38,222 bases of DNA from an uncultured Lachnospiraceae bacterium (GTDB lineage: Bacteria; Bacillota; Clostridia; Lachnospirales; Lachnospiraceae): positions 1 to 38,222 of the forward strand of contig CANQHZ010000032.1 in the NCBI GenBank assembly GCA_947623805.1. Direction: 5' to 3'. Position 1 is the stretch's first letter; every line of letters begins with the position of its first letter. A program made the position numbers and the translations under genes. A model generated the notes under the pieces. The model was given only the letters and a program-made list of their open reading frames with translations, made no database searches and had not been told where the DNA came from. This document shows positions 1 through 10,425 of the stretch, in pieces.

Positions 1-564
1 ATGACTGTGGGTGAAAATATAAGGCGTATTCGTCAGGAACGTGGTCTTACGCAAAAGCAGCTTGGGGAATTAGTAGGCGCAAGCGAAGCATATATTCGTG
101 CATATGAAAGCGGCAGAAGAAATCCTAAACCTTCATCTCTCGAAAAAATAGCAACCGCCTTGGCAGTCAATCCAGAAGTATTGGAAAACTCCGAATTTGA
201 CGGCATAAAGGCTATGCACAGACTTTTTCAGGTATTCCGCCAATATAGCGGGCATCTTTTTGAATGCCAAGATCCAGATGGTAATGATGTCGTTGGAATT
301 TACTTTGACATGTTAAGCCTGATGCGCTCGTGGTTTGAACGCTATGAACAATATATGCAGGAAGTCGAGAAGTGTAATTCAATTAAAGATGTCAAAAAAC
401 GTGGTGAAGCGCTCTTGAAAGCAGAGGCAGATTTTAACCTTTGGATGGATATCTACCCAGAGTCAGAGCCTTGGAGACAGCGGCTTAATCTTCAAAAGAC
501 GCATGATGAGTTTATGGATAGGATTGGGTTGAATCCGAAAGATAGAGTGGAGGACGAAAAGTGA
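1..564 (+). CDS. XRE-family HTH transcriptional regulator
   Basis: This 187-residue protein starts with a Cro/C1-type helix-turn-helix at residues 4-58 (recognition region around GELVGASEAYIRAYESGRR). A helical, acidic and Trp-rich tail of about 120 residues follows that I do not recognise as a catalytic domain. Family knowledge makes it a DNA-binding repressor of its own transcription unit; that role is inferred. The ATG lies on the first base of the window, so its ribosome binding site and promoter are not visible and an upstream start cannot be excluded. Its stop codon overlaps the GTG start of the PIN-like gene by 4 bp, so the two are translationally coupled, as in toxin-antitoxin or island-control modules. 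Its base composition is clearly less AT-rich than the partner gene. Confidence 0.85.
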   Translation: MTVGENIRRIRQERGLTQKQLGELVGASEAYIRAYESGRRNPKPSSLEKIATALAVNPEVLENSEFDGIKAMHRLFQVFRQYSGHLFECQDPDGNDVVGIYFDMLSLMRSWFERYEQYMQEVEKCNSIKDVKKRGEALLKAEADFNLWMDIYPESEPWRQRLNLQKTHDEFMDRIGLNPKDRVEDEK

Positions 565-1397
565 AAATTGGTAATAATATATACAAATTGATTTTCCTAG
601 ATACAAATGCATTAAGGGAAATTGTGACTGACACTAATTCAGCCGGCAAGGGATTTCTACAAAATTTTTTTATTAATACAACTGAATATGCTCCCTGTTT
701 TTCTATTTATAACGTAATTGAACTTGTACCATACGGAGATATATTTGACCAGTTTATTGAGTTCTTTTCTGTCATACCTTGTATATTAACATTTCCAGTA
801 AAATCTATTTTTCAAAAAGAATATGATTGTTATATTACAGGTAGTACATTTCAAATTGATAACAACATAGCCTACGCTTTTTCACCAATATCTTCTGATC
901 AAAATCATGATTGTAAAAAATTTTTTGATAACATTTTGAATAACAAACCTTTAATTCAAACTATACATTCGGAACTTGACAATTTCCCTTCAATAGCAAC
1001 AATCTGGAACAAGAAAAGGGAAAATGCTAAAAAACTATTAAAAACTCTGCAATTACCGTTAAACTTGATAGATGAAAAATTTTACAAATCTCAGGAAAAA
1101 GTGACTGTATTAAAAGATTTGCAGAATTTTAATATCCCTGTCACTTCTAATACCGATATATTTAATCTACCTGCTGCAAGAATGATGGAATATTCACATT
1201 TTTCACGAATTTATTTTACACAGAAAAAAATTATCCCTAATGATGTTATGGATATACAAATTAGTTGCATCGCGCCTTATGTAGATGCTGTTATCACTGA
1301 AAATTTCCAAGCTGATGTGTACAAAAAAGCTAAACGGTTAATACCGCAGCTAAAGAAATTGGAAATATACACTCTAAAAGATATAAGAACGAAATAA
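561..1397 (+). CDS. PIN-like domain protein, putative RNase partner of the XRE regulator
   Basis: This 278-residue protein begins with a beta-strand ending in LDTN (Asp14), as in PIN-domain nucleases. Glu54 lies in a helix-like IYNVIEL segment. The C-terminal part (residues 226-250) has Asp228/Asp231 followed by VDAVITEN with Asp242 and Glu247. That is the usual acidic spacing of a PIN metal site, although the last position is Glu rather than the commoner Asp. At 278 residues it is about twice the length of VapC-type toxins, with an unassigned helical middle (about 60-220). It starts with GTG inside the preceding stop (4-bp overlap). The gene is markedly AT-rich compared with its neighbours, which suggests recent transfer. 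An RNA- or DNA-cutting effector controlled by the XRE protein is inference; a degenerate PIN fold without activity is the alternative. Confidence 0.55.
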   Translation: MKIGNNIYKLIFLDTNALREIVTDTNSAGKGFLQNFFINTTEYAPCFSIYNVIELVPYGDIFDQFIEFFSVIPCILTFPVKSIFQKEYDCYITGSTFQIDNNIAYAFSPISSDQNHDCKKFFDNILNNKPLIQTIHSELDNFPSIATIWNKKRENAKKLLKTLQLPLNLIDEKFYKSQEKVTVLKDLQNFNIPVTSNTDIFNLPAARMMEYSHFSRIYFTQKKIIPNDVMDIQISCIAPYVDAVITENFQADVYKKAKRLIPQLKKLEIYTLKDIRTK

Positions 1398-1403
1398 ATT
1401 TTT

Positions 1404-1421
1404 GTACCCAAATCGTACCCA
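1404..1421. repeat. paired GTACCCA repeats, possible integrase arm sites
   Basis: GTACCCA occurs at 1404-1410 and again at 1415-1421, an 11-bp (one helical turn) spacing. They lie just after the PIN-like gene and about 60-75 bp from the guaA stop codon. Short same-face direct repeats near an island end are typical of tyrosine-integrase arm sites, but no integrase gene is in the window, so the role is inferred. Confidence 0.35.
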
Positions 1422-1433
1422 CCGCCAATTTTA

Positions 1434-1475
1434 AAATCCCCGCAAGCCTTGATTTTTCAAGGTTTGCGAGGATTT
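1434..1475. terminator. bidirectional terminator between the PIN-like gene and guaA
   Basis: Arms AAATCCCCGCAAGCCTTGA (1434-1452) and TCAAGGTTTGCGAGGATTT (1457-1475) form a 19-bp stem with two imperfections and a 4-base T loop. On the minus strand the stem is followed by TTTT, which suits termination of guaA. It also separates convergent transcription from the PIN-like gene. Confidence 0.85.
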
Positions 1476-1481
1476 ACCCTC

Positions 1482-9618: not shown

Positions 9619-10425
9619 TTGAACACAGCACTGACTATCGCAGGCAGCGACTCAAGCGGCGGAGCAGGTATACAGGCCGACATAAAGACAATGACTATGA
9701 ACGGCGTGTACGCCATGAGCGCCATTACGGCACTGACAGCGCAAAACACCACAGGAGTACGCGGCATATTCGACGTCTCCCCTCAATTTTTGGCACAGCA
9801 GCTTGACGCCGTATTTGAGGACATTTTCCCCGATGCCGTAAAAATCGGTATGGTTTCATCAGCAGAGCTTATAGAAACAATCGCCGCCAAACTAAAAAAA
9901 TACAATGCCAAAAATATCGTAATAGACCCCGTCATGATTGCCACGAGCGGTTCGCGTCTTATACAGGAGGAGGCCGTTTGCGCCCTCGCAGACAACCTGC
10001 TGCCGTTAGCCGACCTCATAACGCCAAACATTCCCGAGGCAGAAATATTGTGCGGCAAAACCATTCGAGATAAAAATGACATGCTGTACTGCTCAGAGCT
10101 TATCGGCAATACCTACGGCTGCGCCGTGCTGTTAAAAGGCGGCCACAGCATAAATGACGCCAACGACCTTCTCTACGCAGACGGCAGACATCGCTGGTTT
10201 GAGGGAAAAAGAATTGACAACCCAAACACCCACGGCACAGGCTGCACACTATCAAGCGCCATAGCCTCAAACCTTGCCAAAGGCTTTAATCTCGAGGACG
10301 CCATAAAGAGGGCAAAAGAATATATTTCAGGCGCCTTATCCGCAATGCTCGACTTAGGCATAGGAGCAGGTCCCATGAAACATTGCTTTAACCTTGACGG
10401 ATATTTCTCCGATATGCCAAATTAA
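9619..10425 (+). CDS. thiD: bifunctional HMP kinase / HMP-phosphate kinase
   Basis: ThiD phosphorylates hydroxymethylpyrimidine twice, supplying HMP-PP to ThiE. It is a ribokinase-fold protein of 268 residues with TIAGSDSSGGAGIQADIKT at the N-terminus (substrate pocket), the TPNIPEAEIL segment, KGGH, and the ATP/anion-hole motif HGTGCTLSSAIA near the C-terminus. The start codon is TTG at 9619, preceded by AAGGAGA at 9604-9610; there is no closer ATG at the conserved N-terminus. It is the third gene of the thi operon. Confidence 0.96.
   Translation: MNTALTIAGSDSSGGAGIQADIKTMTMNGVYAMSAITALTAQNTTGVRGIFDVSPQFLAQQLDAVFEDIFPDAVKIGMVSSAELIETIAAKLKKYNAKNIVIDPVMIATSGSRLIQEEAVCALADNLLPLADLITPNIPEAEILCGKTIRDKNDMLYCSELIGNTYGCAVLLKGGHSINDANDLLYADGRHRWFEGKRIDNPNTHGTGCTLSSAIASNLAKGFNLEDAIKRAKEYISGALSAMLDLGIGAGPMKHCFNLDGYFSDMPN

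Follow-up and report, generated by a model that had tools for sequence, protein, structure and literature searches.

Integrative elements that reside at the 3' end of guaA include ATE-1, the IncP island and Gisul2, and some of the listed elements carry toxin-antitoxin or antitoxin genes (PMC5704250). Integrative mobilizable elements (IMEs) at the guaA 3' site are also described for S. suis (PMC12479173), and a guaA-flanked defence island in Stenotrophomonas maltophilia is reported to hold diverse anti-phage systems and the most diverse content (PMC11680222). PIN-like toxins, in turn, are placed in toxin-antitoxin and defence networks in a further study (PMC10440598). Here, we analysed a stretch of 38,222 nt from an uncultured Lachnospiraceae bacterium, in the following called the window, which comprises the whole of contig 32 of genome G000 (G000:C32:1-38222). 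Position 1 of the window is base 1 of this contig and at the same time the first base of the start codon of a gene for an XRE-type helix-turn-helix (HTH) regulator, which is followed by a gene for a PIN-like protein and by convergent guaA. Our comparisons support the view that the PIN-like gene is an exchangeable cargo of an element inserted at guaA, where it probably serves in defence on its own instead of forming one half of a toxin-antitoxin pair. The features at this end of the window are:

1..564, plus strand: XRE/HTH regulator, 187 aa, ATG start, HTH_3 domain (E 2.4e-15); same-genus orthologues lie at the guaA-side element end
549..563, plus strand: GGAGG ribosome-binding site within the XRE 3' end plus spacer to the GTG, read from the sequence
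561..1397, plus strand: PIN-like gene, 278 aa, GTG start; assigned by alignment, profile and VIA-align comparisons
1404..1421, no strand: direct repeat GTACCCA-AATC-GTACCCA (period 11) at a distance of 60 nt from the guaA stop codon; presumably an integrase site of the arm type
1438..1473, no strand: hairpin in the gap between two convergent genes, PIN-like and guaA; recognised by eye
about 1482-1495, within guaA: element insertion site at the guaA 3' end; inter-genome identity stops at the guaA stop codon
1482..3026, minus strand: guaA, with GATase and GMP_synt_C domains

A previous sequence-only reading had described an overlapping pair of genes for an HTH protein and a 278-residue protein, which was confirmed: both frames share the tetranucleotide GTGA, that is a 4-bp overlap, and the GGAGG motif at 549-553 lies 7 nt ahead of the GTG start codon. 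The PIN-like gene may be translationally coupled to the XRE message. The further proposal that the pair forms a two-gene XRE-PIN module was not supported by a survey of the homologues of either gene. A search of 38 genus genomes returned, beyond the window's own copy, best XRE matches of 82, 73, 73, 67, 71 and 48% identity, several of them encoded beside guaA; in the alignment, five orthologues reach 67-81% and one 43%. The relatives have a common layout, in which XRE points to guaA, and relaxase, integrase and small HTH genes point away. A PIN-like gene follows none of the five XRE orthologues of 67-81% identity: four of these (L089, L081, L090 and L092) are followed directly by the element end without any cargo, and the fifth (L077) by an unrelated gene encoding 225 aa. 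An XRE neighbour is likewise absent from all six other full-length PIN-like homologues (0/6), HTH genes being located farther off in two cases as judged by eye, ~2 kb upstream in L007 (7639-8007) and ~4 kb upstream in L093 (4199-4417). Since neither gene keeps its partner, XRE appears not to be a dedicated antitoxin among the homologues found. The sequence-only reading had itself named a lack of any co-occurrence of homologues with the XRE gene as grounds for refutation, and this is the pattern among the homologues found. Rather, these comparisons identify XRE as the last core gene of the element and the element's own regulator, divergent from xis/integrase in relatives.

Where XRE and guaA face each other, the position of the PIN-like gene is occupied by different genes in different elements. 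Loci in which an XRE facing guaA comes first numbered 22 (21 surveyed loci plus the window); a divergent integrase is visible in 16 of the 21, the other five showing none in the stretch available. Cargo is present between XRE and the element end in 10/22 loci, and the slot is empty in 12/22, with a 60-aa frame (L132) and a 110-aa frame (L134) scored as empty slot. In 10 of the 22 loci the last gene, be it cargo or XRE, ends 76-87 nt from the guaA stop, and this spacing places the cargo directly between the XRE stop codon and the terminal repeats. The cargo of the ten occupied slots is as follows:

Window: PIN-like gene, 278 aa
L077 (G030): 225 aa, unknown
L079: GmrSD_N (E 2.8e-24; PADLOC NsnA 4.1e-41) plus a 186-aa protein
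L083: bSEFIR (2.7e-55)
L086 and L140: MerR/TipAS together with a 155-aa protein; the two genomes share layout and XRE
L106 (G046): 274 aa, unknown
L108: AAA ATPase (HEC-01A, 3.7e-40) plus 273 aa
L115: 182 aa, weak PycTM match (1.3e-4)
L127: defence reverse transcriptase (RT_UG31, 1.6e-89)

Scanning with PADLOC, which left out the 155-aa protein of L086 and the L140 copies, assigned four of the ten scanned slot proteins to defence families at E<=4e-40 (bSEFIR, NsnA/GmrSD_N, HEC-01A and RT_UG31), whereas of ten control proteins, encoded in these elements on the far side of the integrase, none scored below 1e-20. The weaker matches of the controls were at best 2.4e-19 (primase-like) and 4.4e-14 (a specificity subunit). 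In a further locus (L091, 7448-9354), a less closely related XRE of this type is followed, after ~1 kb, by TIR-like and caspase-like genes on the opposite strand.

Sequence identity between genomes ceases at the guaA stop codon, and 56-62 nt past it a pair of 6-10 bp repeats is found, spaced exactly 11 bp apart. The repeat sequence varies with the element type (GGGTAC, GGCAAC, TGATACC, TGAGATTG, TGCTACT, ATTGCATT and others). The repeat is present in 16/17 flanks of the genus set including the window, and in 37/51 usable guaA flanks of genus and family combined, as compared to 145/20,000 random control segments. Of the 37 flanks with the repeat, 26 have a gene for an integrase similar to any of seven reference integrases at a distance of no more than 5 kb; of the 14 flanks without the repeat, none has. 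These counts derive from L074-L090 and L102-L141; out of 59 flanking loci, three without guaA and five with <100 nt were dropped before counting. The family part is a non-random sample: its 40 genomes come from the upper range of a list ordered by guaA identity (134/150 genomes with a match), in which genomes with too little contig were skipped. The repeat is presumably an arm-type site of the integrase at the element end. A related repeat at the far end of the first element in G010 fits the expectation for integrase arm sites; the terminus of the window is common to G037 and to the outer element of G010, where two guaA elements stand in tandem with a second copy of the guaA core between them (L080/L081; G010:C12, about 1026743-1107250). 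The first of the tandem elements measures ~80 kb and carries, as judged by eye, a lysozyme-like gene. As a side aspect, period-11 direct repeats may be a general mark of integrase arm sites. The hairpin at 1438-1473 was not called by the terminator scan; by eye, its shape and not its sequence is kept at other guaA element ends.

Thus far, the window itself can be followed only up to the XRE ATG, with which the sequence read begins; its own integrase and relaxase side lies beyond the contig start, and integrase matches within its own genome reach at most 28% identity. Integrase and relaxase are present in relatives' elements of this layout. Together, repeat, slot and element layout in relatives support the earlier suggestion of island cargo at the guaA 3' end, and the beginning of the window is best described as the guaA-side end of an element that is integrative and probably mobilizable. 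The same genome holds an 84% identical copy of the terminus with a degenerate repeat between two unrelated genes (G000:C13:3529-3604; L002 1501-1576). Perhaps an element once inserted at a secondary site and left this copy behind; its candidacy as another module was rejected, as it is only a short second copy of the terminus.

Homologues of the PIN-like protein are few. Full-length relatives share 67% (L005), 66% (L006), 61% (L007, Clostridium porci), 62% (L010, that is MT836216), 46% (L142) and 26% (L004) identity with it, and two loci (L008 and L009) retain C-terminal pieces only. In L008, from Schaedlerella arabinosiphila, the last 59 residues of the gene remain (10001-10177), with the same downstream gene as in L005. 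Besides the window, a full-length hit was obtained in one of 97 other relatives; a 392-genome order sample gave the same genome again plus two partial hits with stops, and family (397), class (391) and phylum (398) samples, which overlap with each other, gave zero, one and zero full-length hits, respectively. All full-length hits of the genome searches thus trace to the window's own genome, G084 and G912; the family is rare. By eye, L005 and L006 have an integrase gene as neighbour. The remaining homologues keep other company: L007 adjoins a relaxase gene, L010 is preceded by genes for a methyltransferase and a presumed restriction enzyme and followed by Mob, and L004/L093 lies among phage structural genes (all by eye); in L142/L143 (G912; L143 6007-7519) a SEC-C gene precedes and an FRG-domain gene follows. 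L005 and L006 are 90% identical over 60 nt past the PIN-like gene and not beyond, so that the PIN-like gene comes last in that element as well. Comparison of the flanks detected no conserved small open reading frame (ORF) beside the homologues, similarity being confined to the sister elements L005 and L006. A phage origin of the PIN-like gene was discarded: the single hit in a phage collection, MT836216, bears the label Bacteriophage sp., but its genes for a methyltransferase, Mob, a primase and an integrase, as judged by eye, point to a mobilizable element. Five scans of viral contigs found no relative, and no plasmid or phage hit was obtained for other queries. The AT-richness that had drawn attention to the gene is real (GC content 0.288 versus 0.448 for the window), but is not peculiar to it: the six homologues in other genomes range from 0.256 to 0.306, indicating a family trait rather than a mark of the window's copy.

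Is the protein a PIN nuclease? The alignment of seven full-length homologues, down to 26% identity, shows D14, E54, D228, D231 and E247 to be invariant (7/7). Of the acidic quartet named previously, D14, E54 and D228/D231 were thus upheld, whereas D242 varies, being Asn in L010. Because E247 is invariant and D242 is not, E247 is the more likely fourth acidic residue by this alignment. The acidic residues D-E-D-D/E occur in PIN order, and the profile alignment assigns D14 to motif I, E54 to motif II, D228/D231 to motif III and probably E247 to motif IV, motifs II and III being set apart by a long insert (about 115-150 residues). When the insert was deleted, the profile was collinear with 12 PF01850 proteins (score 21.0, equalled in 0/60 column shuffles), these being the 12 of 30 PF01850 loci that passed a length and frame filter. 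With the full-length profile, hhalign gave P 0.043, 3/60 shuffles scoring as high. VIA-align, a weak comparison, placed VapC structures at ranks 1-4; its list has 48 rows, and the 18 that mention Vap, PIN or PilT-N all stand among the first 32. By contrast, no family model, Pfam included, detects the protein, and the PF01850 search does not pick the gene; PADLOC has no model that matches it at E<=1, nor was any described anti-phage system matched, and a sequence search of solved structures returned nothing meaningful. Weak matches to Imm57, LAMB4, Tup_N and a PHROG tail protein were judged to be chance. The nuclease assignment of the sequence-only reading is therefore sustained by motif register and by the PIN-dominated comparison to a moderate degree, the family models remaining silent: alignment and structure comparison give moderate support to a PIN core that a long insert interrupts, and the protein is likely an RNA-cutting enzyme of an undescribed family.

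We propose, with a probability of about 0.5, that the PIN-like protein is a stand-alone PIN-type RNase with a role in defence, carried as exchangeable cargo by guaA elements and kept in check by its insert. From position and fold, we infer RNase activity, regulation by XRE, the defence role and the role of the insert; the gene arrangement itself is observed, as are the element end, the pattern of cargo in the slot and, among the homologues found, the lack of a fixed XRE partner. In this scenario, the element's XRE promoter would drive a message that also carries the PIN-like cargo, which would be translated from it via the GTGA overlap and the internal GGAGG. The long insert might supply sensing or self-restraint instead of a VapB-type antitoxin, and the protein would be kept inactive by the insert, or by low expression. 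When a phage infects the cell or a rival element enters it, the protein might cleave RNA and thereby stop the infected cell. Still more tentatively, one may envisage a new family of stand-alone anti-phage PIN RNases, in which the insert between motifs II and III takes the place of an antitoxin as sensor and brake. The family would travel via a cassette site common to guaA elements, at which unrelated defence systems of one or two genes replace each other directly between XRE and the terminal arm repeats of the integrase and in this way come under control of the element's XRE.

Other explanations have to be considered. If the two genes formed a type II toxin-antitoxin system or a defence module of two genes, with XRE as antitoxin or repressor and the PIN-like protein as toxin, this would agree with the 4-bp overlap and the antitoxin-toxin gene order, and XRE proteins act as antitoxins in other toxin-antitoxin families. 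However, as four close XRE orthologues have no cargo, the fifth precedes an unrelated gene and the six PIN-like homologues do without XRE, this reading was dropped, neither gene keeping the other, and we regard it as very unlikely. The PIN-like gene could also serve the element in addiction or exclusion, that is by stabilising it or by blocking competitors, with an unlinked or built-in antidote. Its occurrence in various mobile elements, either terminally or within the core, its AT-richness and its rarity would suit such a role, which nevertheless appears unlikely given that no conserved small ORF accompanies the gene and that flanks are similar only in the sisters L005 and L006.

That the protein adopts another fold, or is a PIN-derived non-nuclease, such as a regulator or RNA-binding factor belonging to the elements, is unlikely. 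It is true that no family model detects it, that motif IV has T-E-N in place of the canonical TxD, that D242 is not conserved, and that the structure model is of low confidence; yet five acidic residues are invariant down to 26% identity, the insert-deleted profile is in register with PIN and PIN rows dominate the VIA list. Finally, the XRE-PIN junction might reflect a chance insertion of cargo that is under no functional selection, in keeping with the empty slot in 12/22 elements of this layout. This is highly improbable, considering the intact frame, homologues of 61-67% identity with invariant motifs in other mobile elements, and the recurrence of defence cargo in the same slot.

Taken together, a positional rule replaces the two-gene module: whatever gene lies between XRE and the 11-bp-period end repeat in the guaA elements of these Clostridia is cargo that can be exchanged, and several genomes have a recognised defence gene there. 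The unknowns in the slot, that is the PIN-like protein, the 225-aa protein of G030 and the 274-aa protein of G046, become ranked candidates for new defence genes, testable gene by gene, and the repeat provides a sequence mark by which element ends can be found without seeing the integrase. Literature searches on guaA elements in Lachnospiraceae and on the slot returned no paper, and further searches gave no description of the PIN-like family or of the slot.

Compared with VapC and other PIN RNases (PF01850), the protein agrees in motif order and register (LDTN with D14, E54, and NDVMD versus NDPFD in the local PF01850 proteins), and its best structure rows are VapC proteins. It differs by its length (278 versus about 130 residues), by the long insert between motifs II and III, by T-E-N in place of T-x-D and by escaping the PF01850 model; unlike in VapBC, its gene has no conserved adjacent gene for a VapB-type antitoxin (0/6 homologues next to XRE). 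With the defence genes found in the slot, namely bSEFIR, DRT RT_UG31, the GmrSD_N/NsnA type and the HEC-01A AAA ATPase, the PIN-like gene shares position and direction of transcription, although the protein families are unrelated and it has no PADLOC match. The S. maltophilia island belongs to an unrelated phylum and comprises many genes, whereas here a slot for one or two genes lies behind the element's regulator. The known guaA 3' IMEs are similar with respect to the guaA 3' site, a tyrosine integrase and mobilisation genes, the latter two being seen in the window's relatives; what distinguishes the present case is that the element end, the repeat and the XRE-cargo order have been compared over many clostridial genomes.
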